Positions 2,445-35,893 of a DNA stretch of 64,000 bases are shown here, piece after piece. The stretch is from positions 139,548 through 203,547 of the forward strand of contig NZ_JANIAC010000001.1 in NCBI RefSeq assembly GCF_024723255.1, written 5' to 3'. Below the pieces are notes generated by a model. That model made no database searches. It was not told the DNA's origin and saw nothing but the letters and a program-made list of their open reading frames with translations. A program made the translations under genes and the position numbers. This DNA comes from Aestuariibaculum sp. M13 (lineage in GTDB: Bacteria > Bacteroidota > Bacteroidia > Flavobacteriales > Flavobacteriaceae). The first letter of the stretch is position 1, and each line of letters opens with the position of its first letter.

Positions 2445-4416
2445 CTAAAAGCTTAATATTCTTAATTGGTATTAGTTGGTTGGTTGTCCATTTATGGCCG
2501 GACTTTTTCCAGAGCATCAAGGTAATATAAATTTTCGATTTAAGTGTATTAGATACACTTTCATTTTTTTCAACATTTATAACTTTACTATATTCACTTT
2601 CAGGATGTAAGTCTTTAGTTTCAATAACCTCAGTTTTATCCCATCCCATTATTGGAATCATAGCCAATTTATATCTTCCATTATCAATTATGGTAGCTTC
2701 ATAGCCTTTTACTTTTTTCTTTTTAACTATGATTTCTGATTCCAATTGCGGCAAAGCATAATGCCCCAAACGCATAGAGATAGGCTTATCACTTTCATTT
2801 CTATCTACCCTTAAAATACCATTGGCTAAAGGAATATCGGCTAAACTAAATTTAATTTTCTCGTCGGTTTCTAATACCACATCCCGATAATATACGCCAT
2901 TTTTAAACTTTTTAAAATTGTATAAACGGAAGGCTTCCCAATCGTTATTCTTATTTTTTATCACATAATTCATGGCCACTTCACCATGTTCCCCATCGGC
3001 TTGCCAAGGGAAATCACTGTTATAAGACAGTCTATTGTAATTTTCGGTAGATCGGAATTTCTGCCAGTCGTCCTTTACCTTTTCATGACACCAGGCACGT
3101 ATTTCGGAAGTACCACTATTTGGGTAATCGGTAATTAATATCTCTGAAGCTTCCTGAAATGTATTGTAAACTTTATCCTTTTTGAAGGTCTCATCCCATG
3201 CGCCATTATTCTCAGTCGCTGTCCAAAACGGATTGTCATCCGGCACTAACAATCCTAAAAAGGCTTTCCCCATCCAATACACACTGCCACGACAACTATA
3301 ATTTTGTACCGCAGGTTCAAAGGCACCATAAAAACCAAGTGTTGGCACTCGATCTTTCATAAAATCGGGATGCGTAAAAAACTGCTTAATAACCCCAGAC
3401 GAAATACGACGCATCCAGCCAAAATTAATATCTTGTTTATCATCTTCTAATCCCATCAATGGAAACGGAATAATAGATCCAATACGGTAACTAATGCTCC
3501 TTCCATACATAATCATTTTACCATCTTCACTAAACAGATATGGATAATTATTTTTTAAATCTTTAAAGTTATTAATGAATTTTGAGGCTATTTCCGGGTA
3601 ATATTGTTTTCCAACATATTCTGACCAAATCATACCATACATTTGAAACGCCCACATGCTGTAATAATCGTATGCCGGGCTATCGTTATACCAGCCTTGC
3701 CCGCGATAATGCGTCAAGGATTTTTCCAGATATTCTACCAATAAATCTTCGTTAACCTCGTAGCCTTGCTCCTTAAAAAAACTCAATACAAAAATGTTAA
3801 AAAACTTCCAGTTAGAATCTACCGTAGGTCCATCACCATAACTTAACATGATACTCGCCAAATTATCTTTAGTCTCTTGTGTTAACGGTTCCCAAAGCAC
3901 ATCCGGACTGATAAGCATCGATAATGCCAAAGCTCCAAATTCTACCAGATTCTGACTTGCCCCTCCATTTTTTGGTCTAGGTACAATATAGGATTCGCTG
4001 TTCACATCTGTTAATTTACCGATTTGATAACGGTAGTAATCTGCAACATTTATGTTGTTAACCTTTAAATCGGGATTATCCTTAAGCAATGGTGCTGCTA
4101 CAAATAAAGTTCTGCATAACCCTTCCAGTTTTTCGGTTGGTACACGACTTTCATTATGAGGATAACTTTTTCCCGGTTGCTTTGGAAACTTCATCGGGTC
4201 ATCCAAAGTTTGGATATAACTAAATGCACCTTCAAGCAAGTACAAAGCAGCATCTTTCCAGTGCTGCTTTGTCATTCCTGTGTACGGACTTAGATTATAA
4301 TCGGGGTTTTCTATCTCAAAAACATTGTTAGTGGTTTGTGAAAATCCTACAAAACTACCCAATGCAAAAAACATAAAAACCCACGATAAAGACTTTATAA
4401 AACTCATATTATTCAA
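2386..4416 (-). CDS. DUF2264 family secreted protein, candidate glycan-active enzyme
   Basis: 676 aa with an N-terminal signal peptide (hydrophobic stretch ending GFSQ near residue 27). The sequence matches the DUF2264 architecture: an alpha/alpha-toroid-like N-terminal part (LSPYTGMTKQHW, then NLVEFGALALSMLISP) and a beta-rich C-terminal part. DUF2264 proteins are frequent in polysaccharide utilization loci. From memory the family overlaps GH154, with beta-glucuronidase activity in arabinogalactan breakdown, but I cannot verify this. Its start overlaps the stop of the upstream GH43 gene by 8 bases, so the two are probably translationally coupled. In context it would act on glucuronate-bearing side chains in the periplasm or at the surface. 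The family call is fairly safe; the activity is inferred. Confidence 0.8.
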   Translation of the reverse strand: MNNMSFIKSLSWVFMFFALGSFVGFSQTTNNVFEIENPDYNLSPYTGMTKQHWKDAALYLLEGAFSYIQTLDDPMKFPKQPGKSYPHNESRVPTEKLEGLCRTLFVAAPLLKDNPDLKVNNINVADYYRYQIGKLTDVNSESYIVPRPKNGGASQNLVEFGALALSMLISPDVLWEPLTQETKDNLASIMLSYGDGPTVDSNWKFFNIFVLSFFKEQGYEVNEDLLVEYLEKSLTHYRGQGWYNDSPAYDYYSMWAFQMYGMIWSEYVGKQYYPEIASKFINNFKDLKNNYPYLFSEDGKMIMYGRSISYRIGSIIPFPLMGLEDDKQDINFGWMRRISSGVIKQFFTHPDFMKDRVPTLGFYGAFEPAVQNYSCRGSVYWMGKAFLGLLVPDDNPFWTATENNGAWDETFKKDKVYNTFQEASEILITDYPNSGTSEIRAWCHEKVKDDWQKFRSTENYNRLSYNSDFPWQADGEHGEVAMNYVIKNKNNDWEAFRLYNFKKFKNGVYYRDVVLETDEKIKFSLADIPLANGILRVDRNESDKPISMRLGHYALPQLESEIIVKKKKVKGYEATIIDNGRYKLAMIPIMGWDKTEVIETKDLHPESEYSKVINVEKNESVSNTLKSKIYITLMLWKKSGHKWTTNQLIPIKNIKLLDDGGIDIEIKGSETKTVNY

Positions 4417-16379: not shown

Positions 16380-18353
16380 TTACCAACCTGGGCTTTGTAC
16401 CAGATTAGGGTTTTGAATTAGAGTATTTTCATTAATTGGCCAGAAATAGTCTCTTGGCGACACAAAACGCTGTTGGTGAAGCGTTAAAACCTGATAGTAT
16501 GAACTCTCGGTCGTTCCAAAAACATTCCATCCTTTTATTGGATTGTTAAATTCTCTAACGGCTTTTTTCCATCGTCTAACATCCCAATAGTTTTTACCTT
16601 CATAAGCCAACTCAATAGTTCTTTCTCTATGAATTATTTCTCGCATACCTTCTTTGGTTGTGTATTTACTTGGACTCGTAGAGTAATTTTGCCAAGATGC
16701 TGCAACACCTTCAAGACCTGCACGAGCACGTATAGCATCTACATATTCTAATACTTCTGCGGTAGGGCCTGACACCTCATTTAAAGCTTCGGCGTACTGT
16801 AAATACATATCTGCTAAACGTAATTCTGGCCAAGCGTAAATTTTATAAGATCCGCCACCATCGCTGTTAAAGTTATACTCCCAGTTAACGACTTTCTTTA
16901 TAAAATATCCTGAGATGTTAAAATCGAATGCATCAAAACTACCTGCATAATCCTGAAACTTAGACTCAATATGGAATTTAGTTTCATCAGCATAACTATC
17001 TTGTTTGTAAAAAACAGCACCATCAAATCCTAAATCGGCATAAAAACGAGGTTCTCTATCGAAATTTAAAATAGAGGTTCTATAGCCTTGAAAAATATTT
17101 AGTGCATCATCCGGCCCCGCTTCTCTAAGTTTCGTGATATCTGAAAAATCTAAAGTTTTATCTTCATCAATTGGCACCCCATTTTTAGTATAAAACTTAG
17201 ATGCTGATCCTATTGTTGGAGAGAAAATCATTCTTGCTTCTCTAGCTGGCACCACATTAGATAGCGGCATCATACAAATACGTTGTAACCAATAGGTTGT
17301 ACTTTTTGTATTAGACCATATAACCTCTTCATTAAAAGGTTCACAAAGGGCCTGTCTTATTTGAACTTTCGTTTTTGAAGTCTCAGAAATATCGAAAGTA
17401 AAATCGTTTTTATAATAAATTTTATGTCCGTTAGCTTCGGCTACATCAATAGCATTTTTAATTGCTGTTGCTGCTCTTTGCCATTTAGTTGGATCATAAG
17501 TAGTATTAAATAATGGCGTCCCATCGTTATTGGTATATCCTGCCATATCCGTATTGCCATTAAATAATGGACTAGCAGCCATTAACAAAAGTTCCCCTTT
17601 AATTCCTAAAGCTGCCTGTCTGGTTACTCGTCCTAATTCATTTTGAGTATCAACAATTTGTGGCGGTAAATGTACCGAAGCTTCATCTAATAAATTGGCT
17701 AAATAATCCACACTTTCATCAATAGGATCTCTCGATACCTGAATTTCATTCTCTGGTGCATCCACCGGAATCACATTACGGATGATTGGTATTGCACCAT
17801 ACATACGCATTAAGTAATAATGATAATATGCCTTTAAAAATTTCCCTTCTGCAATCCAACGTAAACGCTCGGCTTCACTAATATCTGGCACATTGCTTCT
17901 ATCCTCCATATTTTCAATGAATACATTACAATGACGAATACCATCATATAACGGATATAAATCACCAGGTCCGGCTGCCTGAAAACGTCCTTCCCACGCA
18001 TCCATATATGGATTTGATGTGCGTTGCAAACTTCTAGCAATATCGAATGCATAACTGTTTAAAGCTGCATCGTTAGGAGCTATCCAGGTTTCATTACCGG
18101 CTAAAAAACCAATATTATAGATAGCGTCCCCATTTTGAGGTAAATATGAATAGCAGGTAAATAAATATTTTTCCGCTTCGTTTCTTAATTTAAACGCTTG
18201 ATCTATAGTCACTACGTTGTCTGGAACAACATCTAAAAATGTTTCTTCACATGATTCTAAACCAATAAGGCAAAAAACCATGATGGACATTCCTAAAGCT
18301 TTATAAAGCCTTTGAACTCCTTGTTTTAATATTTTTTTCTTTATAGTTCTCAT
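16380..18353 (-). CDS. susD: SusD/RagB-family outer-membrane nutrient-binding lipoprotein
   Basis: 657 aa lipoprotein (CLIGLESCEETFLDVVPDNV). SusD features are the early FLDVVPDNVVTIDQAF helix, TPR-like helices (RWIAEGKFLKAYYHYYLMRMYGAIP in pieces), the C-terminal RagB motif ELRLADMYLQYAEALNE and the closing segment RERTIELAYEGKNYWDVRRWK. At 657 aa it is longer than typical SusD (about 500-600), as in other complex-glycan systems. It starts 10 bases after the susC stop. It forms the lid of the SusC barrel and captures oligosaccharides. Confidence 0.95.
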   Translation of the reverse strand: MRTIKKKILKQGVQRLYKALGMSIMVFCLIGLESCEETFLDVVPDNVVTIDQAFKLRNEAEKYLFTCYSYLPQNGDAIYNIGFLAGNETWIAPNDAALNSYAFDIARSLQRTSNPYMDAWEGRFQAAGPGDLYPLYDGIRHCNVFIENMEDRSNVPDISEAERLRWIAEGKFLKAYYHYYLMRMYGAIPIIRNVIPVDAPENEIQVSRDPIDESVDYLANLLDEASVHLPPQIVDTQNELGRVTRQAALGIKGELLLMAASPLFNGNTDMAGYTNNDGTPLFNTTYDPTKWQRAATAIKNAIDVAEANGHKIYYKNDFTFDISETSKTKVQIRQALCEPFNEEVIWSNTKSTTYWLQRICMMPLSNVVPAREARMIFSPTIGSASKFYTKNGVPIDEDKTLDFSDITKLREAGPDDALNIFQGYRTSILNFDREPRFYADLGFDGAVFYKQDSYADETKFHIESKFQDYAGSFDAFDFNISGYFIKKVVNWEYNFNSDGGGSYKIYAWPELRLADMYLQYAEALNEVSGPTAEVLEYVDAIRARAGLEGVAASWQNYSTSPSKYTTKEGMREIIHRERTIELAYEGKNYWDVRRWKKAVREFNNPIKGWNVFGTTESSYYQVLTLHQQRFVSPRDYFWPINENTLIQNPNLVQSPGW

Positions 18354-18363
18354 ACCTTTTTCT

Positions 18364-21300
18364 TTAAAAATCTAATTTTAAACCTAAGTTATATACCGAC
18401 TGAATTGGGTAACCTAAGCCATTACCTCCCATCTCAGGATCCCATAATTTAAATGGACTCCACACTGCCAGGTTATTGCCACTAAAGTAAAGTCGTGCTG
18501 ATTGCATGCCTAACTTAGTAACAAACTTTTCAGGAAAATTATAACCTGCCTCAATGGTTTTTAATCTTAAAAACGAACCATCACGCATCCACCAGGTTGA
18601 AGCATACGGCGCCTGGTTTGCTCCTGGGTTACTATTGAAAACGTTATTATTCTCATTGAACTCTCCTCCTAATCTAGGCCAAAATGCGTAAGAATCTCTA
18701 TTATCTTCAGACCAGTGATCGTCCGCAATTACCTTTAATAACCCATTTTGAGCAGATCCATTAATAACAAATGGTGAAATATTCCATGGATTAATAAAGA
18801 ATGAGGTTCGAGCCACACCTTGGAAAAATATACTAAAATCGAAATTCTTGAAACCTAAAGTTCCTCCAAATCCATAAACAATTTCCGGAACTGTTGGATG
18901 CCCAATAGGTACCATGTCTAAACTAGAAATTTGACCATCTCCATTAACATCACGATATTTTATATCTCCACCTCTAACTTCTCCAAATTGTGTTGGTGAA
19001 TTAGCAACCTCCTTGTCATCAATAAATAAACGCTCTGCAATATACCCATACCATTGGCTTGCATTTTGTCCTACACGTGAGCGGTATGATAATTCTTCTG
19101 GATATGTTACTTCATCGAACTCTAAAACTTCATTGGTTGAAAACGTAAAATTACCTCTTAATTGCGTGTACCAATCCTGATTAAAAGACTTATCGTAAGT
19201 TAAAGAAGCGTCCAAACCTTTACTTTCCATTTTACCAAAATTGGTTGCTGGTATCGCCGTTAATCCCATGGTTGCTCCAATATTAGAACGCTCTTGTAAA
19301 ATATTTGTTCTATTTTGTTTAAACACATCAACTATAATATTCAGGGAATTGAATAACTCTAAATCGAAACCAACGTTGGTTTGTCTCGATTTTTCCCATC
19401 CAATATTTGGATTAGCGTAACGATCGATATAAACTCCAGGTCGGGAATTATTAAATTGCTCTCCAAACGAGGTTCCGTATCTTCCGTCATTTAAATTTAC
19501 ATTAGATAAATAAAAGAAACGGTCGTTTACATTACCAATGGCATCATTACCCACAAGACCATATGTAAAACGAAGTTTAAAATCAGATACGACATCTCTT
19601 AAACCGTCCCACCAATCTTCTTTAGATATACGATAAGCTAAACCTAAAGATGGAAAATAACCATATCGGGCGCCATTTGCAAAACGCTCAGATCCATTGT
19701 AACCGAAGTTAAATTCAAATAAATATTTATCGTCATACCCATAAGTAAAACGTCCTGATAAACTGTGGTTTCTATTTGGTAAAGAACTTTGAACTGATCC
19801 TGCATTACCCGTTTCATAACTTGATAAAAGATTTACTAACATCCCTGAAACCGCATGCTTTTCATTAAATACTCGGTTATAGTTGATAGCTGTTTCTAAA
19901 TAAATTCTGGAATCTAAATCCTTTCTACCCTCAGAATAATCCAAATATTCTGTTCCTGTTACACCTACACTACCCTGACCTCCGTCATTAAGTACATTTA
20001 GCTCCAATTCACCTGAAAACGGACTAATATATCCTTCATAATAAAATGGATTATATTGTCTGGCCACTTCATAATATGAATAACGTCTTACATACCCCAT
20101 GGCTCGTGCTGATAGACCTTCAGTTATCCCAGCCAAGTCCTGCTTAATTTCAACCTGAGCCTGAATTGTTGACGCTTTATTTGTTTGATACCCTCTAACC
20201 ATTTCGGCATAAGGATTTATTAAAATTGCTGAGCCACTATTATTTGTAGCCTGTGCTCCACCAAATAATGGGTGATCAATAAATGGTAAATAACTAGACG
20301 GATATACTTTAGGGAATTTTACTGGGTTTGACCATAACGTTAAATTAAATATACGAGCACCTCCATTTACCCAGTTACCGTTAACATCACGACCTCCAAC
20401 AGGTCCATTATAATCATCGAACTGACCATAAACACGAACAATACCTTTAGTTGTTGGAGTTAAGTTCATATCTAAATTACTACGTACTGAATAATTTCTA
20501 AGTTTGATATTATTATTAAAATTATTAATCGGGTCTACATCCAAAACACCATTATCAACATTATATGTACCTGCGATATAATACTTGGCTTTTTCTCCTC
20601 CACCCTGTGCACTAAAATTTAATCCCTGGTTTACTGTATAGTCTTTGATAAGTTCATCAATCCAGTTATTACTTGGATACAAATAGGGATCATCTCCGAT
20701 AGACGTTCTGTAAATTTTGTTTTGCGTATAAGGCAATGTTGCCTGAGGATCGCGAGTTAAAGCAGCCTCATTTGCCAATTGCATGTAAGTAATATTATCA
20801 GCAAATTTAAAATTCCTGGTATTTGATGATATTCTTGTTTCACTACGTAACTGGAATTGCGTTTTTCCTGCTTTACCCATTTTAGTGGTAATTAATACTA
20901 CTCCGTTAGCTCCACGAGCACCATAAACTGCTGCTGCTGCTGCATCTTTTAATACCGAAAAACTTTCGATATCGTCAGGTTGCAAACGCGCCATATCGGT
21001 AGTAGTAGATTCGATACCGTCAATTAAAATTAATGGATTTACCTTACCGGATCCGAAAGAACCTAAACCACGAATAAAGAAATCGGAGTTATCAGCTCCT
21101 GGCTCACCACTTCTTTGAACGGCAATCATACCTGATACACGACCAGCCATCATGGTTGTTAAGTTACTTGTAGGTCCTTTAATTTCTTTAGGTGAAATTG
21201 TAGTAATGGAACTTACCAAACTTGCCTTTTTCTGAGTACCAAAACCTACAATAACAACTTCATCTAAAGCTTCCTGACTTTCATTAAGTACAATACTAAA

Positions 21301-21654
21301 TACCGATTTTTCGCCAATTACAACTTCCTGCTCTTCGTACCCAACATAGGATACGACTAAAGTAGTAGCTGAAGCTTCTATTTCAAGTTGAAATTCACCA
21401 TCGAAATCTGTTACAACTCCATTTGTTGTTCCTTTTACGAGAACGTTAGCTCCTGGTAAAGGCATTCCTGATGCATCTTTAACCACACCAGTAATAATGC
21501 GCTTCTGGATTTCACTATTGAAATCTACTGTTTTTCCTTCGTTAGCTTGAACTTGATAAGCGGTCACACACAACAGGAGCACCACCAGTTTGAATTTAAA
21601 ATCAAATTCAGGACAAGAAAAAAAGACTTTCCTCATTTTAATTAGTTTTATCAT
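18364..21654 (-). CDS. susC: SusC/RagA-family TonB-dependent outer-membrane transporter
   Basis: 1096 aa. After the signal peptide (ends about residue 38, YQVQA) there is a carboxypeptidase-D-like regulatory domain (ITGVVKDASGMPLPGANVLV, to about 130), a TonB-box-like LDEVVIVGFG, the plug domain (DFFIRGLGSFGSGKVNPLI, VLKDAAAAAVYGARGANGVV) and a long 22-strand-type barrel ending in YNLGLKLDF. This is the standard SusC signature. The 146-bp leader between the GH2 stop and this start shows no copy of the direct-repeat operator, so it is probably cotranscribed with GH2. It imports oligosaccharides produced at the surface. Confidence 0.95.
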   Translation of the reverse strand: MIKLIKMRKVFFSCPEFDFKFKLVVLLLCVTAYQVQANEGKTVDFNSEIQKRIITGVVKDASGMPLPGANVLVKGTTNGVVTDFDGEFQLEIEASATTLVVSYVGYEEQEVVIGEKSVFSIVLNESQEALDEVVIVGFGTQKKASLVSSITTISPKEIKGPTSNLTTMMAGRVSGMIAVQRSGEPGADNSDFFIRGLGSFGSGKVNPLILIDGIESTTTDMARLQPDDIESFSVLKDAAAAAVYGARGANGVVLITTKMGKAGKTQFQLRSETRISSNTRNFKFADNITYMQLANEAALTRDPQATLPYTQNKIYRTSIGDDPYLYPSNNWIDELIKDYTVNQGLNFSAQGGGEKAKYYIAGTYNVDNGVLDVDPINNFNNNIKLRNYSVRSNLDMNLTPTTKGIVRVYGQFDDYNGPVGGRDVNGNWVNGGARIFNLTLWSNPVKFPKVYPSSYLPFIDHPLFGGAQATNNSGSAILINPYAEMVRGYQTNKASTIQAQVEIKQDLAGITEGLSARAMGYVRRYSYYEVARQYNPFYYEGYISPFSGELELNVLNDGGQGSVGVTGTEYLDYSEGRKDLDSRIYLETAINYNRVFNEKHAVSGMLVNLLSSYETGNAGSVQSSLPNRNHSLSGRFTYGYDDKYLFEFNFGYNGSERFANGARYGYFPSLGLAYRISKEDWWDGLRDVVSDFKLRFTYGLVGNDAIGNVNDRFFYLSNVNLNDGRYGTSFGEQFNNSRPGVYIDRYANPNIGWEKSRQTNVGFDLELFNSLNIIVDVFKQNRTNILQERSNIGATMGLTAIPATNFGKMESKGLDASLTYDKSFNQDWYTQLRGNFTFSTNEVLEFDEVTYPEELSYRSRVGQNASQWYGYIAERLFIDDKEVANSPTQFGEVRGGDIKYRDVNGDGQISSLDMVPIGHPTVPEIVYGFGGTLGFKNFDFSIFFQGVARTSFFINPWNISPFVINGSAQNGLLKVIADDHWSEDNRDSYAFWPRLGGEFNENNNVFNSNPGANQAPYASTWWMRDGSFLRLKTIEAGYNFPEKFVTKLGMQSARLYFSGNNLAVWSPFKLWDPEMGGNGLGYPIQSVYNLGLKLDF

Positions 21655-21800: not shown

Positions 21801-24920
<3,120 letters not shown>

Positions 24921-25010
24921 TTATTTTATATTTAGTGGTTGGCTTATTAAAATGTACAAAAGACACTTATAATAATATTACAAATCTGAACAATTAAAAA
25001 CTTTAAATAA

Positions 25011-25050
25011 GGGGATAAATTGACTAAAAAGAGGGTAATAAATGTCCAAA
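25011..25050 (-). promoter_or_regulatory. Putative HTCS operator, copy upstream of GH2-susCD
   Basis: Two direct half-sites, GGGATAAATTGACTAAA at 25012 and GGGTAATAAATGTCCAAA at 25033, have a 21-bp period. The same layout recurs at 27750 and 33740, always before genes of this locus. AraC-type HTCS domains bind such direct repeats. The enclosing 25.0-25.1 kb gap holds no ORF. Confidence 0.7.
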
Positions 25051-25118
25051 TGACAATTTATACCCTATACCTCAGACACAACAACAGATTCATAATCAAT
25101 TTATTGACTTAAAAACCC

Positions 25119-26297
25119 CTAAATCCTGTGATATTTATACCTCATCATAGCCTCGATTAAATAGTAATCGCCATAACTAAGCGGAACATCTATTTCTGTT
25201 TTCTCCGGAATATGACCAACGCCATGCTTTAAAAGAAACCCTCCATTGGTATTGTCCTTTGCTATATATTCATCAGAGGTTAATGTAGTAATCATGGTTT
25301 TGGCTGCAGAATCGTATTTTTCTACCAGGTCGCCTTCTACATAATGTTTTAATTCTAAAAGTGCCGATGCCATAATAGCACCTGCTGATGAATCTCTTAA
25401 AGCATTAGGAATATCAGGCGCATTAAAATCCCAGTAAGGCACCATATCCTTTGGCATATTTGGATGATTTAGAATAAACCCTGCAATACCATTGGCCTGA
25501 GCCAGGTATTTTTTATCCTTTGTTTCTCTATACATTACCGTGTAACCATACAAACCCCAGGCCTGACCACGGGCCCAGGCAGAATCATCAGAATACCCTT
25601 GTGCCGTGCGCTTCTTCTTTACCGAACCATCATTTTTACTGTAATTTAACACGTGGTAAGAACTATAATCATTTCTGAAATGATTTTCTATTGTAGTATT
25701 TGCATGTGTCACAGCAATATTATAATACTTAGAATCTTTACTGTATTTAGAGGCCCAGAATAATAATTCTAAATTCATCATGTTGTCTATAATCACTAAA
25801 TAGTCATCTTCTGAAGCATCCCAAGACTTAATACAGCCAACTGTATTATTAAACCTTGAAGCCAAGGATTTGGCGCTATTCATTAATATAGTTTTGTATT
25901 CTGGTGACGGATTTAAACGCTCAGCATTTCCAAAACTACAATACATCATAAATCCTAAATCATGTGTCGTAGTATTGTATTGTTCACGTTGTAAATCTGC
26001 CAAAACACGTTTTATTTCGTCTTGAAAAACCGGATTACTGGCGTTTTCATTTAAATACAATAACGATCCCGGATAAAACCCGCTACACCACCAACCAGAG
26101 CGACTGGTTTCTAACTTTTCCTGACTTACATGATATGTTTTTGGATATCTCCCCTCTGGCAAAACTTCCTTTAAATGCTCATATTGAGTTTCTGCAATTT
26201 TTAAAGTCTCATCAATTTTATTCATTAATGGATCTTCCTTTTTACACGAGTTAAAAGAACAGATAATCCCTATTACTATTAAAATCTTTTTAACCAT
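25119..26297 (-). CDS. GH88 unsaturated glucuronyl hydrolase
   Basis: 392 aa lipoprotein (FNSC, Cys18). An alpha6/alpha6-barrel enzyme of the UGL family: the two conserved Asp residues are visible as Asp113 in TTHDLGFMMYC and Asp171 in VIIDNMMNLELLFWAS. Other family marks are GYSDDSAWARGQAWGLYGY and YWDFNAP. Such enzymes hydrate and release the 4,5-unsaturated uronic acid left by polysaccharide lyases. Located 9 bases after the BNR-propeller gene, with which it surely forms an operon; this pairing hints that the propeller is a lyase generating an unsaturated glucuronate end. Confidence 0.9.
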   Translation of the reverse strand: MVKKILIVIGIICSFNSCKKEDPLMNKIDETLKIAETQYEHLKEVLPEGRYPKTYHVSQEKLETSRSGWWCSGFYPGSLLYLNENASNPVFQDEIKRVLADLQREQYNTTTHDLGFMMYCSFGNAERLNPSPEYKTILMNSAKSLASRFNNTVGCIKSWDASEDDYLVIIDNMMNLELLFWASKYSKDSKYYNIAVTHANTTIENHFRNDYSSYHVLNYSKNDGSVKKKRTAQGYSDDSAWARGQAWGLYGYTVMYRETKDKKYLAQANGIAGFILNHPNMPKDMVPYWDFNAPDIPNALRDSSAGAIMASALLELKHYVEGDLVEKYDSAAKTMITTLTSDEYIAKDNTNGGFLLKHGVGHIPEKTEIDVPLSYGDYYLIEAMMRYKYHRI

Positions 26298-26306
26298 TTT
26301 TTTTAC

Positions 26307-27638
26307 CTATTTTTTACTCTTGATGAGCTTTTTTAAATTATTTACTTCTAACATTTTTACAGGAGTTGAATTTCTATCGGCAACGCCTTCTCCATCTATT
26401 TGTGTTACATTCTGAAAGAACACATGTAGTTTCCTTTTACTGTTCCATAAATTGATATCGTAATTCGGCTCCCATTGTCCGACTGAGGTTTCGCTCAAAT
26501 CGACAACTTCCCACGACGTTTTATTTTCTAAATTCTGAGAATAAGTTAAAGACACTTTACTTCCTCTGGACGCTTCTCTAAAAAGCACAGCTACAAAATC
26601 ATCCTTAATAAGAATATCTGGTCGCGAAATAGGAATGCTTTTAGTTCCTCCTCCCCCTAAAACAAAGGATTCTGTTCTAAATCCGGTATTTACTTTTTTC
26701 CAGCTATTATCTTTTAAATACACGATTTGATATTGTGGAATATCATCAACATTCCAATACGTTACGATATAAGGATTACCTTCATGATTTGCGGTAATTG
26801 AAGTTTGATTGATGAGATTACTATTTTGAGGAATTTCCCAAGCATACTCAGCTGATAACAAGGTAATAGGAAGATTATAAGCTTCTGAAGTAGACTTCTC
26901 CCAGGTTTTTCCTCCATCCAAAGAACGCGCATAACATAAATCATGGTTTGTCTCAACATCCCAGGTTTCACGCCAAACCCAAGACAAATGAATCACACCG
27001 TGACCATCTACCGCAACCTGCCAATAGGCACTGCGCTGATTTTCTCCATCTATAAGATTACTTTGTATTTGTGTCCATTTTTCAGACTGAATATCATAAG
27101 AATTAATAACCAAATTACCGCGTCCTGATTGTCCTGAACGGTAGAAAAACAATACATTCCCATTAGGTAAATTATAAAATTCAGGATAAGTAACTTTGTC
27201 TTCCTGTTTACCTGTCATTGGTAATTCTTCACTCAATTTTAAACTTAACGGAGCTTTACTCTTTGCATATCTGAGCTTGGTATCATGATGATCCCAACTA
27301 ACATGTAAATACCCTTCACCATCAACCGCCAAACTAATATCATTATGTGCGTCTTTGGTGTTTCCTTGGTATTGGGTTTGAGCAATCTCCCAGTTTGAAG
27401 TATTAACTTTTCGTTTCCCCAACACCAAATAACTGTCTTGATTGTAATAGGCTACAAATTGATAACCCGAATGTGTAGTAATCGCATTTTTTCTGAATTT
27501 AACAGTATTTACCGAATTCTTACTCCAGCCTTCCCCGATATAACTATATGAAACGTTTTGAGCACAGGACGAAAAACACAACAAATAGCTTGTTGCTATA
27601 ATGAGCAAGTTAAACTTCAGAAAAATGCTTCTTTTCAT
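26307..27638 (-). CDS. BNR_4 seven-bladed propeller, candidate rhamnose-glucuronate lyase/rhamnosidase
   Basis: 443 aa, N-terminal lipoprotein-type signal (LLCFSSC). The sequence matches the BNR_4 repeat family that includes ulvan lyases PL24/PL25, GH145 and (from memory) PL42: DAHNDISLAVDGEGYLHVSW then DHHDTKLRY, VTYPEFYNLPNGNVLFFYR and QSGRGNLVINSYD. The His residues in the HND and DHHD segments are in the region where catalytic or ligand-contacting His residues lie in that family. GH145 and PL42 enzymes act on L-rhamnose-alpha-1,4-glucuronic acid caps of arabinogalactan; a lyase mechanism would produce the substrate for the adjacent GH88. A direct-repeat operator lies about 110 bp upstream. 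Confidence 0.8.
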   Translation of the reverse strand: MKRSIFLKFNLLIIATSYLLCFSSCAQNVSYSYIGEGWSKNSVNTVKFRKNAITTHSGYQFVAYYNQDSYLVLGKRKVNTSNWEIAQTQYQGNTKDAHNDISLAVDGEGYLHVSWDHHDTKLRYAKSKAPLSLKLSEELPMTGKQEDKVTYPEFYNLPNGNVLFFYRSGQSGRGNLVINSYDIQSEKWTQIQSNLIDGENQRSAYWQVAVDGHGVIHLSWVWRETWDVETNHDLCYARSLDGGKTWEKSTSEAYNLPITLLSAEYAWEIPQNSNLINQTSITANHEGNPYIVTYWNVDDIPQYQIVYLKDNSWKKVNTGFRTESFVLGGGGTKSIPISRPDILIKDDFVAVLFREASRGSKVSLTYSQNLENKTSWEVVDLSETSVGQWEPNYDINLWNSKRKLHVFFQNVTQIDGEGVADRNSTPVKMLEVNNLKKLIKSKK

Positions 27639-27679
27639 TTTAATAGTAAAATGTGAGTTTTAGTTTTGTTGATTTTCGC

Positions 27680-27708
27680 TTAATAAGTGTGCTAAACGCA
27701 CTTATTAA
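27680..27708. other. Perfect-loop inverted repeat in the BNR-GH88 leader
   Basis: TTAATAAGTGTG (27680-27691) faces CGCACTTATTAA (27697-27708), 12 bp with a single mismatch that becomes a G-T pair in RNA. It lies between the putative operator and the BNR gene start and has no T-run. It may be a leader hairpin or a second protein-binding palindrome. The rest of the 280-bp gap shows only the operator at 27750. Confidence 0.45.
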
Positions 27709-27748
27709 AACAGGTAGTTCAAAATTGGACAAAAAACACCTTGCAATG

Positions 27749-27790
27749 CGGGTAAAAAATGGCTAAAACAGGGATACAAAACGTCCAAAA
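27749..27790 (-). promoter_or_regulatory. Putative HTCS operator, copy upstream of BNR-GH88
   Basis: Half-sites GGGTAAAAAATGGCTAAA (27750) and GGGATACAAAACGTCCAAA (27771), 21-bp period, same order and orientation relative to the downstream genes as at 25011 and 33737. Confidence 0.7.
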
Positions 27791-27918
27791 CACAATAAAA
27801 TCGAAAGATTCCCGCTTTTAAGTGTTCATTTAACTTTTAAGTAAAATTTGTAACAATTAAATTGAATATTCTATTTCAAATTGAAATGAACAAAAGTCAA
27901 ATATGTGAAGAATGTTGT

Positions 27919-30900
27919 TTATTTATTTTTAGATAGATCCGAAGGTAATTTTTCAAACTGTTCCTTAAACAGTTTTCTAAAATACTTGACATTATTGAAA
28001 CCAACTTCGTAAGATGCCTGAGCGATGGTATAGTTTCCGCTCTCTATTAACTCTGCGGCTTTATCTAACTTTACCTTTCTAATAAACTGATTAATATTTA
28101 AGCCTGTAACCGCTTTAAGTTTTCTAAACAACGACGTACGACTCATGCCCATATGTTGAGCAACATCCCAAACATCCATTTTTTCCTGATCGAGATTATT
28201 AAGCACGACTTGAGTTAATTTATTCAAAAAGCCTTTCTCCTGATCTAATAACGAATTCTTATCTTCTAATCCTTCCAGTTTAACTTCATCTTTATTTAAA
28301 AAATAATGGCGTAATTGCTTTCTAACGTCTAATAAATTTCGAATTCTGGCTTGTAGAATCTGGCCACTAAACGGTTTCACTATATAATCGTCTGCACCAT
28401 ACTTATATCCTTCCTGAATGCTTTCCGCATTACCTTTTGCGGTAAGTAATATAATTGGAATATGTGTGGTTTCGGTGGTCTCCTTCAATATGTTACAAAG
28501 CTCAATACCATTCATTTTAGGCATCATAACATCAGACACTATCAAATCCGGAATGTAACGTTTAGCCTTTTCAAGACCCTCTTCTCCATTATTGGCATAA
28601 ATAAGATCGTATTTACCCTCCAGTAATCCATCTAAATACTTTAAAATATCAGGGTTATCATCGATTAGCAATACCAATTCCTTATTTTCAGTTACATTTA
28701 AATTAGCATTCGTTTTTGTTGTTTTGTCTAATTCTGTAAATGGCACCCAATCTTCAATTTCGTTATGTTCCTCTTTATCTGTCGTATTTGAAGTATCTAA
28801 AACCGCATTCACAAATAGAGATTTATCGCGAGGAATTATTACTGTAAAGGTACTTCCTTTTTTCTCCTCACTTTCAATTTGAATACTGCCCATGTGTAGT
28901 TCGGCAAAACTTTTAGAAAGCGCCAAGCCAATTCCAATACCCTGTTTACTCTTAACGGAATTTGACTGATAATACCTTTCAAAAACATGTTCTAATTCAG
29001 TTTTACTTATGCCATAACCTGTATCTCTAACCTTGATTTCAAAACTATCCTCATCATATACCAAAGACACATAAATTTCACCATTATCGGGAGTGTATTT
29101 AAAAGCATTTGATAACAGATTATTGAAAATAATATGGATTTTTTCCAGATCGAACCAAGCCAGTAAAGGTTCTTCCTGTAAATCGTAACTTAAAGCGATA
29201 TTTCGTTTTTTAGCCAACGGAAAATAGTTATTAACCCACTGTTCTAAACAAGCATTTAAATTATGTTCTTCAATTCTTAATTTACTCAATCCTAAATTGG
29301 CTTTTCTAAATTCTAACAGCTTATTAATAGTTTGTAATAACTGCTTTGCGTTTTTTTGAATTAAGGTTAAACTGTTTTTGTGCTTTATAGATTTCACCTC
29401 GGAAATCAAATCTTCCAACGGTGCTAAAATTAACGTTAACGGTGTCTTAAGCTCATGAGAAAAGCTTGTAAAAAAGCGCATACGTTCTTCATTAAAATTA
29501 TACTCTAACTGACGCTCTTTCTTTTCTATAGATAATGAATTGATAAGCTTTAAACGCTCGGCATAATACCTCATAAACCAATATATACCCAAAACTAAAA
29601 CAACCAGATAACCAATATACGCCCAAGATGTTCGCCAAAATGGAGGAAGAACTTTTATTTTTATTTTTTTAAAAGTTTCATCGCCTGAACCAAACTTTGC
29701 TTTAACATTTAAAGTATAATCGCCGTAAGGTAAATTAATTAGGTTGACCTTTCCATATTGATTTGTACTAATCCAATGGTTGTGATAACCATCAACACGG
29801 TAATAATAATTCACATTTTTAGCAAACGGATATTTTAAAGCCACATAATCAATAGAAAAAAAGGTTTGATCCGGTTGCAAATAAATCTGATTTTCAAAAA
29901 GGATAGACTCATCTATAACTGCATCTTTTTCATTTTCAGAAACTTCTACCTTTTCATCCAAAACTTCCAGAGTTTTAAAAATAATAGGATAAGTCTCTCG
30001 CTTGCTATGAAGATTATCAGGATTAAAAATATTTAACCCTTTATCACCTCCAAGATATATCATACCCGAGGAAGTGAATAAACTCGACCCAATATTAAAT
30101 TTCCCTTGCTGTACATTAGTATAGGTGTTTAAGTTATGAATAACATCGGTTAAAGCATTGTAATTACTGATCCCTTTATGGGTACCTAACCAAATATTCT
30201 CCTGATTTTCCATAACTATACTGGTAATTGTATTGTTACTTAAACCGTTTTTTTCAGTAAATCCTATGACTTCTCTTTTCTCTGGATTTAATCGTATTAA
30301 CCCCTCATTTTGGGTTCCCGCCAGCACATCTCCACTCGGCAGAGCCAGTATACTATAAATCACATTACTTTTAAAATCTTGAATAGTGCTGGAATTATAA
30401 AATGTCATCGTGTTTTGGGTTGGTATATATTTTAAAATACCATCGCCATAGGTTGCCATCCAAAAATGACCTTTATCGTCTTCACTGATATCTCGAATAT
30501 CAAGTTTTCCTAAAACATTTATAAACTTAAAGGCATCATTGATTTCATCATACATATATAAACCACCTCTATTGGTCCCTACCCATATCTGGTGCTTCCT
30601 ATCTTCAAAAATTACCCGAACATCACTTCCTAAGGTTATATCTCCTTGCAAATAGTGCTTACAAATGCCTGTATCCGGATCCATTTTATTTAAACCACCC
30701 TGATAAGTTCCTACCCAAAGGCGTTTTTTAGAATCTTCTAATAATGAAATAATGTAGTTATTACTAATAGAATTAGGATTATTCGGGTCATGCCTAAAAT
30801 ATTTGAACTGCCGCGTTTCTGGATCAAACAAATCTAAACCAGCACCATCCGTTCCAATCCATATGCGTTTGTCTGAACGCTCTGCTAAAGCGCCAATACG

Positions 30901-32022
30901 ATCATGACTAAGTCCTTCGCCTCCTGTTATTTTTCGCAATAATTTTATAGGTTCTCCTTGTGGATTTACATAGTTTAAACCTGTACTGGTTCCAATCCAC
31001 ATATTACCATCCTTATCCATTTTTAAGGCAGAAACCGTTCTGTTAAACACACTGGAACCATCATCGGCTGGCAAAAACCATTTTACCTGAAAATCTGTTT
31101 TTTGGTGTAAAAAATCAGATTTATTAATAATATTAAGTCCTCCGTTTCTAGTTCCAATCCATAACTGACCAGAATGATCTTCTTCAAAACAAAGAATGTT
31201 ATCGTCACTAAGTCCTTTACCTTCTTTTAAAGACGTTCCCAGATGTAGGGTGTCTTTTTTATTAGTTATCACATGAAGTCCATTATTTGCACCAATCCAT
31301 AAGTTACCTTCTTTATCATTAAATAATGACTCAATTAAAAAAGACTTCCCTTGCTCATTCCCTTGTAACGAGACACGAGTGACTTTATCGGTTTTTAGAT
31401 TAATTTTATTCAATCCGCTGCCTGCTGTTCCAACCCATAGCAAAGAATCTCCTTGAAGCGCCATACTACTGGTATAATTTGAAGACAACGACGCTTCGTC
31501 ATTTCCTTTATAACTGTAAACCTTTGTTTTTCTGTTTTTATCGAAAACCTGAATACCACGCTCTAAAACAGCTAAGTACACTTCTCCGTTGCTACCTAAC
31601 TCTAACCGTGAAATATGCTTACCCAATAAACCTTTCTCTTCATTAATAATCTCAATTTTTTCTGTTTTAGCATCGTAAACATTCAGTCCTTCTGATGTTG
31701 TTATTAGTAATTTATGGTCTTTAAAAGCTTTTATTTCATTAATAAAATCGTCGCTCAAGCTTTGATTTCCGCGATCTTCATCTCTCTCAAAAACGGTAAA
31801 CTGCGTCCCATCATATCTATTCAAACCTTCAGAAGTTCCAATCCAAATAAAGCCCAAAGAATCCTGAGCAATACTATTAATGCCATTGTTCGACAAGCCT
31901 AACTCTACATCAAGTAAATAAAAATACAACTCGTGTTCAATGGAATTAAACTGCTGCAAAGAGTTTTGAGCTGTACCCGTGGCAAAACACAAAAAGGTGA
32001 TATAAAATAAAAAGTGTTTCAT
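27919..32022 (-). CDS. Hybrid two-component system sensor/regulator (HTCS)
   Basis: 1367 aa. Signal peptide (ATGTAQ), then a periplasmic sensor of about 14 two-component-propeller repeats (IWIGTSEGLNRYDG type) to about residue 700, a Y_Y_Y domain (FFSIDYVALKYPF, GDYTLNVKAKFG), one membrane segment (WAYIGYLVVLVLGIYWFM), a HisKA box with SHELKTPL, HATPase motifs (NNLLSNAFKYTP, DTGYGIS, GIGIGLALSKS), a receiver with the phospho-Asp in DLIVSDVMMPKMNG, and a C-terminal AraC-type helix-turn-helix. It senses a glycan breakdown product in the periplasm and activates the locus. Target sites are probably the three direct repeats at 25.0, 27.75 and 33.75 kb. Confidence 0.95.
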   Translation of the reverse strand: MKHFLFYITFLCFATGTAQNSLQQFNSIEHELYFYLLDVELGLSNNGINSIAQDSLGFIWIGTSEGLNRYDGTQFTVFERDEDRGNQSLSDDFINEIKAFKDHKLLITTSEGLNVYDAKTEKIEIINEEKGLLGKHISRLELGSNGEVYLAVLERGIQVFDKNRKTKVYSYKGNDEASLSSNYTSSMALQGDSLLWVGTAGSGLNKINLKTDKVTRVSLQGNEQGKSFLIESLFNDKEGNLWIGANNGLHVITNKKDTLHLGTSLKEGKGLSDDNILCFEEDHSGQLWIGTRNGGLNIINKSDFLHQKTDFQVKWFLPADDGSSVFNRTVSALKMDKDGNMWIGTSTGLNYVNPQGEPIKLLRKITGGEGLSHDRIGALAERSDKRIWIGTDGAGLDLFDPETRQFKYFRHDPNNPNSISNNYIISLLEDSKKRLWVGTYQGGLNKMDPDTGICKHYLQGDITLGSDVRVIFEDRKHQIWVGTNRGGLYMYDEINDAFKFINVLGKLDIRDISEDDKGHFWMATYGDGILKYIPTQNTMTFYNSSTIQDFKSNVIYSILALPSGDVLAGTQNEGLIRLNPEKREVIGFTEKNGLSNNTITSIVMENQENIWLGTHKGISNYNALTDVIHNLNTYTNVQQGKFNIGSSLFTSSGMIYLGGDKGLNIFNPDNLHSKRETYPIIFKTLEVLDEKVEVSENEKDAVIDESILFENQIYLQPDQTFFSIDYVALKYPFAKNVNYYYRVDGYHNHWISTNQYGKVNLINLPYGDYTLNVKAKFGSGDETFKKIKIKVLPPFWRTSWAYIGYLVVLVLGIYWFMRYYAERLKLINSLSIEKKERQLEYNFNEERMRFFTSFSHELKTPLTLILAPLEDLISEVKSIKHKNSLTLIQKNAKQLLQTINKLLEFRKANLGLSKLRIEEHNLNACLEQWVNNYFPLAKKRNIALSYDLQEEPLLAWFDLEKIHIIFNNLLSNAFKYTPDNGEIYVSLVYDEDSFEIKVRDTGYGISKTELEHVFERYYQSNSVKSKQGIGIGLALSKSFAELHMGSIQIESEEKKGSTFTVIIPRDKSLFVNAVLDTSNTTDKEEHNEIEDWVPFTELDKTTKTNANLNVTENKELVLLIDDNPDILKYLDGLLEGKYDLIYANNGEEGLEKAKRYIPDLIVSDVMMPKMNGIELCNILKETTETTHIPIILLTAKGNAESIQEGYKYGADDYIVKPFSGQILQARIRNLLDVRKQLRHYFLNKDEVKLEGLEDKNSLLDQEKGFLNKLTQVVLNNLDQEKMDVWDVAQHMGMSRTSLFRKLKAVTGLNINQFIRKVKLDKAAELIESGNYTIAQASYEVGFNNVKYFRKLFKEQFEKLPSDLSKNK

Positions 32023-32098
32023 TAAAAAAACGCTGCTAAAATTAGGAATCCAGAGATTATTGCTACTAATTTATAATTAAAGATACTAAAACCAAATT

Positions 32099-33703
32099 TT
32101 AGGATTTATTCTTTTGAAGAATACAAGTCACCAAGGACCTTTGAGGTAATTGAATGTTATTTATTGTTTTTGAAGTCTTTATTTTTTTTAGATTAAAATC
32201 AACCTCTGTATTAGTTAAATACATTTCTGAAACTATATAACCTTTTGGCAATCCTGATAATTTAACCGTTTTATTCGTGTGAAGTTGATTCACAAAAACA
32301 ATAACCAATTCATCATCTGACTTATACACCGAATGTAACACTTCTGAAATAGTTTCTTCATCTGATTTATTATCCACTCTGCGGGAAGCAATACGTTGCA
32401 TTCCTGGTTTTATAAATCTGGAATAATGCCCTAATGCCCATAACATCTTCGATTCGTAAAAACGACCTCCATATTGATTCTTATCAATATATATCAAACC
32501 GTCCTTATAGTTATACGGACTTATGGCCAGCCACCAATGCCAGGCCGAAGCATTCGCAAACACTAAGTCTGAATGGATAACCTTAGCCACATATAATGCT
32601 GCATCAATACCCAAATCTCTGCCACCACCTTTTATTTCAGAATTATCTTCTAATACACAATATTCGGTCATCCAATATTCCAAATCTGTTTGGCTCAACT
32701 TATCATTTAAAGATTTTCTGGTATTCATCAAAGTTTTGGAATTCCAGGTTGTAAAATAACTGTGCCCGGCCACTTTCTTGGCTACCGATTTTAAATCACC
32801 AACATAGCCTTTACTTTTCATATCGAAAAAATAATTGATTTGATTTCCTCTATGAGGTTTATCTGCTGTAGTATATAAATAATTGATTTTCGCGGCTTCT
32901 GTAAGTTCTATTTGACTTGAAATGCGATTAGCTTCAAAAGAACTATCGATAGCTTTAATAGCCTGAAACATTTCTTCGTTAGTCCATGGCGAACCTTCTT
33001 GCTTACAACACTCCCACTCCCACTGCGGTTCGTTAAAAGGACTTATATAATCAAACATAACCCCTGTTTTATCATAAACTCCCTTTACAACTTCAGACAA
33101 GAAATCGGCATATGCTTTATAATTATACTCTAAAAGATTTGAACGCATACCGTTATCTGACCAGGCGCTTTGATTTTCGGTATAGAATACTGGAGGACTG
33201 TTAACAAAACCAATAAATGTCTTTACCCCAAATTGTTTAGCCGCTTTTAAAAACCACTGCTGCCCCTCCTGCTTATTAAAATTGAAAGTCCCATCTGCAG
33301 TAACAAAACATTCTGCTTGTCTCCATTCATCTCTAATTTTACCAATTTTAATTCCTTGTTCTGTACTTCCTGCTCCTATATTAAACCGCCATGCTGTTAA
33401 CCCAATTCCTTCAGGACTTCCATCTTCCTTATTTTCTGTGCTAAACAGTAATTTTACTATCGCTTTTTTAGAGTCTTCAGGCCAATACTTGCCCACAAAC
33501 TGAGTAGACCAGGCATCTGAAGCTCCGAAATTATGAATGGTTTGAAACTTAGTTTCAGGATGAATCCGTATTTCAATAACGTCCGTCGCTGAAGAACTTT
33601 TTTGAGCAAAAGATATAGTGACGCACAATAAGCAGTAAAAAGCAATTTGCTTTTTTGTCTTTAGAAAATAATTCAATTTAAACAGTCTTTTTAGTTGGTT
33701 CAA
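32099..33703 (-). CDS. GH30 family endo-beta-1,6-galactanase candidate
   Basis: 534 aa. Clan GH-A barrel with acid/base Glu225 in YISPFNEPQWEW and nucleophile Glu347 in LEYWMTEYCVLED, then a small beta domain at the C-terminus (LVTCILQ). The motif context (FGASDAWSTQFVGKYW, RFNIGAGS, GFVNSPPVFYT) fits GH30, whose subfamily 5 contains endo-beta-1,6-galactanases. The frame opens with TTG at 33703; no ATG is available before the signal peptide (FYCLLCVTISFAQ), and a TTG at 33676 is an alternative. A perfect TAACTTTG (-7 type) at 33718-33711 would make the 33703 start nearly leaderless. It cuts beta-1,6-galactan side chains. Confidence 0.85.
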   Translation of the reverse strand: MNQLKRLFKLNYFLKTKKQIAFYCLLCVTISFAQKSSSATDVIEIRIHPETKFQTIHNFGASDAWSTQFVGKYWPEDSKKAIVKLLFSTENKEDGSPEGIGLTAWRFNIGAGSTEQGIKIGKIRDEWRQAECFVTADGTFNFNKQEGQQWFLKAAKQFGVKTFIGFVNSPPVFYTENQSAWSDNGMRSNLLEYNYKAYADFLSEVVKGVYDKTGVMFDYISPFNEPQWEWECCKQEGSPWTNEEMFQAIKAIDSSFEANRISSQIELTEAAKINYLYTTADKPHRGNQINYFFDMKSKGYVGDLKSVAKKVAGHSYFTTWNSKTLMNTRKSLNDKLSQTDLEYWMTEYCVLEDNSEIKGGGRDLGIDAALYVAKVIHSDLVFANASAWHWWLAISPYNYKDGLIYIDKNQYGGRFYESKMLWALGHYSRFIKPGMQRIASRRVDNKSDEETISEVLHSVYKSDDELVIVFVNQLHTNKTVKLSGLPKGYIVSEMYLTNTEVDFNLKKIKTSKTINNIQLPQRSLVTCILQKNKS

Positions 33704-33727
33704 GGAGTTTCAAAGTTAATTATTATA

Positions 33728-33743
33728 ACCCCTTTCGAGGGGT
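33728..33743 (-). other. UUCG-type tetraloop hairpin near the GH30 promoter
   Basis: ACCCCT (33728-33733), TTCG, AGGGGT (33738-33743). It overlaps the promoter-distal... proximal edge of the putative operator. If transcribed it would be very stable, but it could equally be part of the binding site. Confidence 0.35.
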
Positions 33744-33782
33744 AAGTATTGTCTAAAGAAGGGTTATATTATGTTCCTAAAC
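33737..33782 (-). promoter_or_regulatory. Putative HTCS operator, copy upstream of GH30
   Basis: Half-sites GGGTAAGTATTGTCTAAA (33740) and GGGTTATATTATGTTCCTAA (33761), again at a 21-bp period. The second half-site is more degenerate than in the other two copies. The 281-bp gap between GH30 and the divergent nitroreductase gene contains this site and a -7-like TAACTTTG at 33711-33718. Confidence 0.6.
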
Positions 33783-33984
33783 CAAATAATTGCTAAGGTT
33801 TTTTAATAATAATCATAAACACCAATTACTAGTATTAAATGTTTAGGAGTAATAAAAAAATGTCTTGGGGTAAAACTTAGTCAATCACCATTGTAGTTTT
33901 GAAGCTCCCCACATCTATTCTTATTTAGCCCTCAAAAAGTAGTATCTGAAATCAACTAAAAGCAAAGAATATCTAAATCAAAAT

Positions 33985-34584
33985 ATGAACCAACTGGAAT
34001 TAAATCAAACACTGCAATCAAATTCAAAAAATGACAAATCTTTAACACCTGATGAAAAAATTGAAGAACTTAAACGCATTCTTCACCTGGCTCCTTCCTC
34101 AATGAATATGCAACCCTGGCAGTTTACTTTTGTTAAAAATAAAAGTGTTAAACATAAACTGGCATTATCTTCTCTTGATCATGCTGAAAATATTAATCAA
34201 GCCGATGTTTTAATCGTTTTTAGTGTTGTTGATAATTTAGATTCCTTTCAATTAGTCATCGAAAAAGAACTTCCTGAAGGCCTGCAAGAACTTTACAATA
34301 ACATTAAAAACTTCACTTCGGAGTCTGATTTGAAAATTTGGTTTTCTAAACAAGTTTACATCGCATTTAGCATTGCTTTAGGCACAGCTGTTTCTCTGGG
34401 TTTGCATCCTACGCCTCTAGAAGATATTAAACCTGAGAAATACACTGAAATTTTAAACATGGTTGATTATAAACCAATTTTAACACTAGCTATAAATTTT
34501 GAAACCGAAAATGACTTTTTCGAATCTACAGACAAACCCAAAACGCGACGATGCATTGAAGATGTGATTATTAATATCGATTAA
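33985..34584 (+). CDS. Nitroreductase-family protein
   Basis: 199 aa, no signal peptide, cytoplasmic. The FMN-binding nitroreductase pattern is seen in RILHLAPSSMNMQPWQFTFV and in the later helix VYIAFSIALGTAVSLGLHPTPLE, with PILTLAINF near the end. Likely an NAD(P)H-dependent flavin oxidoreductase; the substrate cannot be told. It is transcribed away from the utilization locus and followed by a terminator-like hairpin. Confidence 0.85.
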   Translation: MNQLELNQTLQSNSKNDKSLTPDEKIEELKRILHLAPSSMNMQPWQFTFVKNKSVKHKLALSSLDHAENINQADVLIVFSVVDNLDSFQLVIEKELPEGLQELYNNIKNFTSESDLKIWFSKQVYIAFSIALGTAVSLGLHPTPLEDIKPEKYTEILNMVDYKPILTLAINFETENDFFESTDKPKTRRCIEDVIINID

Positions 34585-34936: not shown

Positions 34937-35893
34937 ATGACGTTTAAAAAAATACAATTTCGGTTAACAACACCGAGTAAATGGTATACCCATATAAATA
35001 GTTTAGTTCCATCAACCATAAACGACACACAACTTTTATTAAACCCTGAATTTGGACAGGGAAAACTAAAATACCTTGAAGTTCAAAATGGTCTGTGGGC
35101 CCAGTCAACCAACGTAATATTAAACGAGGATTTGATTTTAGAAAGGCTCGCCAGCGATCATAATGATATGTATTTAATAAATTTTTACCTCTCTAAAGCG
35201 GAAATTAAACAAACCGTTAAAAAGAAAACTATAAGCCAGACCATTGAAAATGTAAATATGATATTTTACTCTTCAATGACTTCGTCGCAAACCTGTGTTC
35301 CTGCCAACGAAACTATCTTGATTTTTAATTTACTTCTTTCCAAAGAATGGTTATTTAAAAACGTTATTCCAGATTATGAGCATTTGAGCAGTTTTTTTAA
35401 TACTAACCACCCTATTTGCCTTTCAGAAAATCTGGATTATAATTTAAAAAAACTCCTTAATCACATTAATTTTGATGAAAACAACAGACTGACATCGATT
35501 TCAGGGATATTACAAATTATAAACTATCTTTTTTTAAAGTTCGGAAAAAGAGAACTGGAATCAAGTAAAAACAATATCCACCCTGACGATTTAAATCAGT
35601 TATTAAAAATTCGTGAAATCTTAGACACCAATCCTCACAGAGAAATACAATTGGTAAATCTGTCTGAACAAGCCAGTATGAGCCTTTCTAAATTTAATCG
35701 CATTTTCAAACAAGTGTTTGGCACCACACCATATCAATACCATTTAAAACAGAAAATGGAAAAAGCGATGGAAACTTTACAGGAAAACAAACATTCGGTT
35801 TCCGAAACAGGGTTTTTAATGGGCTATTCTAATTTAAGTCAGTTTTCCAAGGCCTTTAAAAATCATTTTGGGATTTTACCAAGTGAAGTTTAA
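34937..35893 (+). CDS. AraC-family transcriptional regulator
   Basis: 318 aa. The C-terminal third carries two helix-turn-helix motifs typical of AraC/XylS: LVNLSEQASMSLSKFNRIFKQVFG and the second helix pair ending SETGFLMGYSNLSQFSKAFK, then HFGILPSEV. The N-terminal ~210 residues are an unrecognised sensor-like domain without membrane segments. Likely a cytoplasmic activator, possibly of the preceding nitroreductase gene; no binding site could be identified. Confidence 0.9.
   Translation: MTFKKIQFRLTTPSKWYTHINSLVPSTINDTQLLLNPEFGQGKLKYLEVQNGLWAQSTNVILNEDLILERLASDHNDMYLINFYLSKAEIKQTVKKKTISQTIENVNMIFYSSMTSSQTCVPANETILIFNLLLSKEWLFKNVIPDYEHLSSFFNTNHPICLSENLDYNLKKLLNHINFDENNRLTSISGILQIINYLFLKFGKRELESSKNNIHPDDLNQLLKIREILDTNPHREIQLVNLSEQASMSLSKFNRIFKQVFGTTPYQYHLKQKMEKAMETLQENKHSVSETGFLMGYSNLSQFSKAFKNHFGILPSEV

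Follow-up and report, generated by a model that had tools for sequence, protein, structure and literature searches.

The question raised by this 64,000-nucleotide stretch of DNA from Aestuariibaculum sp. M13 (the whole stretch is called the window below) is which regulator controls the genes of its polysaccharide utilization locus (PUL), and through which DNA sites. The locus encodes a hybrid two-component system (HTCS) protein, and three tandem repeats upstream of its glycoside hydrolase (GH) genes are, on the sequence evidence presented here, very probably the operators of this local HTCS. The repeats are located on the minus strand at 25011..25050 (operator 1, upstream of GH2-susCD), 27749..27789 (operator 2, upstream of the GH145-like and GH88-type genes) and 33739..33779 (operator 3, upstream of GH30 and thereby perhaps also of the HTCS gene), and each is composed of two predicted HTCS half-sites in tandem. 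The original prediction described six half-sites starting with GGG and repeated with a 21-bp period, lying upstream of GH2-susCD, BNR-GH88 and GH30 in a common orientation. All six were indeed found, with GGG starts at 25012/25033, 27750/27771 and 33740/33761 and a spacing of exactly 21 bp within each pair, and the placement was confirmed, the half-sites being read on the plus strand and the genes concerned being all on the minus strand.

In the orientation of the genes, each half-site consists of two sub-boxes, TTTRGNCA and, after a further 4-5 bp, TNCCC. The CCC/GGG box is repeated with a period of 21 bp, and the TTTRGNCA box (TGNCYAAA on the plus strand) fits best with 22 bp in all three pairs. 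A rigid 44-bp matrix performed poorly because the half-sites differ by one base in the inner gap (leave-one-out ranks of only 156, 3 and 6), and it was replaced by a flexible-gap two-box model. Next to operator 1, an extra inverted copy resembling a half-site (25052..25066, plus strand) is 80% complementary to 25032-25046, and a stretch in the related locus L107 is partly similar to it. The intergenic region of operator 3 carries a further repeat of 21-bp period at 33837-33873 (AAATGTTTAGGAGTAA / AAATGTCTTGGGGTAA, 81%), which faces a nitroreductase gene at 33985.

As a test of specificity, a two-box profile was derived from five sites in three genomes other than this one, the window being held out, and scored on both strands of the 64 kb. 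The three window sites took ranks 1-3 with scores of 31.3, 30.2 and 23.2, followed by the next position at 16.6. Among 200 windows generated by a first-order Markov model, the best score reached 30.2 in none and 23.2 in four, from which the GH30 site turns out to be the weakest of the three. After removal of the GH30 or the GH145 sites from the training set, the dropped window site still ranked third; after removal of the GH2 sites, three positions outscored the window GH2 site. Model R1, built from 11 sites (three from the window and eight from four other genomes), was then run on the whole 4.16-Mb genome and gave the three sites, themselves members of the training set, at E 4.2e-10, 5.3e-9 and 5.6e-6, with the next match at 0.62. 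The held-out model R2, for which five sites were taken from G003, G065 and Tamlana nanhaiensis, gave two window sites as the genome-wide top two (E 1.4e-6 and 4.0e-4). In a sample of 397 genomes of the family, R1 matches at E<=0.001 were obtained in five (the own genome, G004, G002, G065 and G382), in a scan that loses weak sites because its filters are stricter. The original prediction expected hits of a genome scan mainly at this locus, and all R1 matches below E 0.6 do fall there. Two candidates were discarded: a first genome-wide IUPAC pattern was badly specified and matched two unrelated places, and a match in G004 (C54, E 0.0028) falls within an open reading frame (ORF).

The sites are conserved together with the HTCS. 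Orthologues of the HTCS are 99% identical in the same species, 91% in G004, 74% in G003 and 64% in Tamlana nanhaiensis, and the orthologue of G065 consists of two pieces of 59% and 71% identity. This last gene (L109:11734-15842) is split into two open frames around residue 364, owing either to a disrupted gene or to a fault in the assembly. A tandem site was identified upstream of GH2 in all five other loci with an orthologous HTCS (L106, L107, L108, L109 and L001), upstream of GH145 in complete form in three (L106-L108) of the four other loci having this gene, and upstream of GH30 in two (L106 and L107) of three. For Tamlana GH145, the proximal half alone is clear. The G065 stretch is without a GH145 match, but carries a second tandem site upstream of GH2; its GH2 promoter (L109:11280-11342) contains three tandem half-sites instead of two. 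Sites outside the training sets were also detected: one in G002, upstream of GH2, and two in G004, located at the other end of the same PUL, the first preceding a gene for a protein with a glycosyl-hydrolase core domain and the second a gene for a protein with a secretion-tail domain. The G002 locus (L161:7253-19001) adjoins the same nitroreductase and AraC genes as the window locus and is shorter, with GH145, GH2 and GH43 following directly and no HTCS, GH30 or susCD between. The models do not include the 99% identical L106, which is redundant, and R1 does not include L001_GH145, which has a half-site only.

Each of the three window promoters carries, 20-22 bp downstream of the proximal box, a Bacteroidota-type -7 box (nAnnTTTG), the function of which is predicted: CAGATTTG at 24981..24988 for GH2 and CAATTTTG at 27720..27727 for GH145, both 22 bp from the proximal CCC box, and TAACTTTG at 33711..33718 for GH30, 20 bp from the proximal box (all on the minus strand). 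A -7 consensus TAnnTTTG was found in Flavobacterium johnsoniae, according to the available part of PMC7366714. In our table of 12 orthologue sites, in which the Tamlana GH145 row was aligned by its proximal half, the position of TTTG agrees to within one base in 12/12, against a background of 0.8% of positions. With this geometry, the proximal half-site would occupy the place of the -33 element. The -7 box geometry, as well as the probable AraR layer described below, are points beyond the original prediction. The listed TTG start of GH30 (33703) lies just 8 bp past the -7 box at 33711-33718, and translation probably starts further in.

The search was extended to related HTCSs by a sample of 15 fetched loci (L110-L124), the HTCSs of which are 44-55% identical, with L125 as a control stretch. 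Ten of these loci gave an R1 site with E<=0.1, weaker than those of the orthologues, and in every case the gene downstream codes for SusC, GH30 or GH145; the control stretch gave no R1 match. At the place corresponding to the -7 box, nine sites at these loci read, by eye, ATTG in eight cases and TTTG in one. The HTH domains are 78-97% identical to that of the window HTCS among the orthologues and 44-58% among the related HTCSs, a divergence that fits the related but non-identical sites.

The proposed regulator (27919..32022, minus strand, 1367 aa) carries the domains Reg_prop, Y_Y_Y, HisKA, HATPase_c, Response_reg and HTH_18, combining in a single polypeptide a periplasmic sensor propeller, a histidine kinase, a receiver and an AraC-type helix-turn-helix (HTH). 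The phospho-acceptor His and Asp, located by eye, are present in SHELKTPLT and SDVMMPK. The S/CHIP motif of the receiver was searched for in the window HTCS and is absent, the sequence reading THIP; in the available part of PMC11253607, this motif is given for most, not all, HTCSs of B. thetaiotaomicron, and it does not define all members. The proposed targets, all on the minus strand, are a GH2 beta-galactosidase gene (21801..24908), followed by susC (18364-21654) and susD (16380-18353); a gene for a BNR_4 protein of the GH145-like alpha-L-rhamnosidase type (26307..27638; 625.6 bits with the NCBIfam BT3686 model, under its cut-off of 700), followed by a GH88-type gene (25119-26297; GH88 25.0 bits, just under the Pfam cut-off of 26.6); and a GH30_2 gene (32099..33703), with the HTCS gene 76 bp further on. 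The locus also encodes three GH43 proteins and an alpha-galactosidase. The enzymes, by what is known of their families, suggest an arabinogalactan-type substrate.

Past the -7 box, two of the three leaders contain a 25-bp palindrome of 9-7-9 architecture and AAGTGTN7ACACTT type, at 24947..24971 in the GH2 leader (9 bp past the -7 box) and at 27682..27706 in the GH145 leader (13 bp past), both on the minus strand; the GH30 leader has no such palindrome. Similar palindromes occur in the genus between araR and araB and upstream of transketolase and GH51-type genes. The own genome encodes an AraR orthologue of 225 aa (L189:5147-5824, minus strand) with NUDIX, NrtR_WHD and AraR_C domains (E 1.7e-70 to PDB 5bs6); by our own reading of the alignment, three of the six DNA-contact residues given in the available part of PMC4666351 match exactly, and the remaining three exchange Lys and Arg. 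The BtAraR oligonucleotide published for BT0365 in the same source bears AAAGTGTAAAAAAGACACTT, with the same arms and spacing. Model R3, built from arabinose-related sites only, detected the GH2 leaders of Tamlana (E 5.8e-4) and G065 (0.0016), an untrained PUL promoter of G004 (E 0.03) and, weakly, the window GH2 leader (0.12 in 245 kb). Against AraR operators in the window stands the genome-wide R3 scan, in which the GH2 palindrome reached just E 2.1, below a match within an ORF, and the GH145 palindrome was found neither genome-wide nor in the 245 kb. On the whole, AraR control appears likely for GH2, and for GH145 it is possible, with about even chances. An R3 match at window 2540-2563 falls within an ORF and is probably due to chance. 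The idea of a leader element occurring genome-wide found no support: strict counts were 3 forward and 3 reverse against 4 and 4 in the control, and with the TTTG prefix, in five genomes, 15 and 18 against 14 and 9, the excess coming mainly from G004.

The palindromes could instead act as stem-loops of the 5' RNA, for instance in mRNA stability, and not as DNA operators of AraR. They are foldable, and in an alignment (A3) of 12 leaders, both sides of the stem have changed at five of the nine pairs, a count conditional on the choice by eye of leaders having the 9-7-9 palindrome (left out were the GH30 leaders, L001_GH145, L109_GH2far and 8/9 leaders of the related HTCS loci). Folding z-scores average -1.2 over 24 leaders; of the two window leaders, that of GH145 reaches -2.6, but that of GH2 -1.3. 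A DNA palindrome would, however, covary likewise. Moreover, the palindromes keep their arm sequence and a spacer of 7 bp throughout, resemble those found ahead of the araB, transketolase and GH51 genes, and agree in arms and spacing with the BtAraR oligonucleotide (PMC4666351, available part). RNA stem-loops are for these reasons an unlikely, if still appreciable, explanation, and AraR operators remain our preferred reading of the palindromes.

For the tandem repeats themselves, several observations weigh against their assignment to the local HTCS. The held-out score of the GH30 site (23.2) is reached by shuffled windows (4/200), and R2 did not list this site genome-wide up to E 10. In G003, no site was found in a search upstream of GH30, which follows other genes there, or of its apparent longer operon. 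Five of the 15 related loci (L111, L119, L121, L123 and L124) are without an R1 match up to E 0.5, L111 being at a contig end. Finally, G002 keeps its site, but a search of it at E<=1e-200 yielded no orthologous HTCS, a 45% identical HTCS being encoded elsewhere; the proximal box of the G002 site is degenerate, which fits a decaying site, and the related HTCS may have taken over. The sites could be bound by a different HTCS or AraC-type regulator whose gene lies elsewhere in the genome, either in place of the local HTCS or together with it, as the own genome has at least two further long Reg_prop proteins, related HTCSs have similar sites and the G002 site exists without the orthologue. This is improbable, since the sites of the own genome are confined to this locus and accompany the HTCS orthologue at five further loci. 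Binding by the stand-alone AraC-family protein (34937-35893) instead of the HTCS is a shade less probable again. Its gene adjoins the locus, as it does in G002, where a site persists without a local HTCS. Yet of the 11 stretches checked, no more than two, the same-species locus and that of G002, contain a close match; the protein is not encoded in the stretches fetched around the conserved sites of G003, G004, G065 and Tamlana nanhaiensis (these genomes were not searched whole), and related sites recur next to related HTCSs. Chance similarity in AT-rich DNA, suggested by the moderate-scoring single half-sites scattered all over the window and the poor leave-one-out ranks of the rigid matrix, is negligible in view of the held-out ranking, the shuffles, the genome E-values, the conservation in diverged species and the constant -7 spacing. 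The local HTCS thus remains the favoured regulator, in agreement with the original prediction, this assignment being supported by genome specificity, conservation at orthologous loci, the HTH_18 domain and a published motif type of 21-bp period.

This motif type is known from B. thetaiotaomicron, in which, according to the available part of PMC3878776, the PUL operons of predicted HTCS regulons, such as that of HTCS_Aga-1 (BT0267), are preceded by a pair of direct repeats whose period averages 21 bp. Common to both systems are an HTCS with an AraC-type domain, the 21-bp direct repeats before PUL operons and the identification of the regulon through comparative genomics, whereas organism and HTCS differ; the comparison concerns arrangement and period. 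Dual control by HTCS_Ara-1 and AraR is likewise described, in the portions available, for BT0365-60 and two other PULs of B. thetaiotaomicron (PMC4666351; BT0365-60 in PMC3878776). Shared with these are a palindrome of the type AAGTGTN7ACACTT and, probably, the action of both an HTCS and an AraR of the NrtR family on one PUL; in contrast, the genes here are GH2, GH145-like, GH30 and GH43, and the palindrome is on two of the three HTCS promoters of one locus. Since both the 21-bp HTCS repeats and the dual HTCS/AraR control have been published for Bacteroides, the arrangement here is not of a new kind. The locus appears to be a well-supported further case of a known type of control, with a probable second regulatory layer.

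We propose the following sequence of events. The HTCS would sense a periplasmic glycan fragment, of arabinogalactan type to judge from the enzymes, and phosphorylate its own receiver; two copies of the AraC-type domain would then bind head-to-tail, one per half-site, on the same side of the DNA and separated by roughly two turns of the helix. In Escherichia coli, AraC binds araI1-I2 with a similar layout, the head-to-tail half-sites lying about 21 bp apart, each being contacted by two HTH motifs, and the proximal one lying by the -35 region. Unlike in that system, HTCS phosphorylation would here take the place of arabinose binding, and the promoter has a Bacteroidota -7 box. The distance of 20-22 bp from the proximal CCC box to the -7 box downstream puts the former at the position of a -33 element, so that the bound HTCS would stand in for the -33 contact and recruit RNA polymerase. 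Activation by the HTCS would in this way reach GH2-susCD, the GH145-like and GH88-type pair and GH30, and by way of the last probably also the HTCS gene. At the first two promoters, the palindrome past the -7 box would probably serve as the operator of the repressor AraR, to be released by L-arabinose, and the two together would form a two-input switch.

The locus offers a predicted regulon outside Bacteroides, in which the operators, the -7 boxes and a probable repressor site as second control element are placed at base resolution, while the HTCS DNA motifs described in the available parts of the open-access literature searched are those of Bacteroides. Somewhat tentatively, with the odds slightly against it, we suggest that the promoters of flavobacterial PULs of this kind follow a fixed grammar, in which an HTCS tandem stands for the -33 element, the -7 box follows 20-22 bp on and an AraR palindrome covers the start site; that the genes of bulk degradation (GH2-susCD and GH145) need both glycan and free arabinose, and GH30 and the HTCS the glycan alone; and that the letters of the operators amount to a code common to the subfamily, which can be read from genome sequence across Flavobacteriaceae. 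The near-constant gap to the -7 box hints at the mode of activation by HTCSs, and would aid in finding HTCS targets from sequence. If true, the dual HTCS/AraR layout would explain how the organism commits itself to a costly system only while arabinose is being released.

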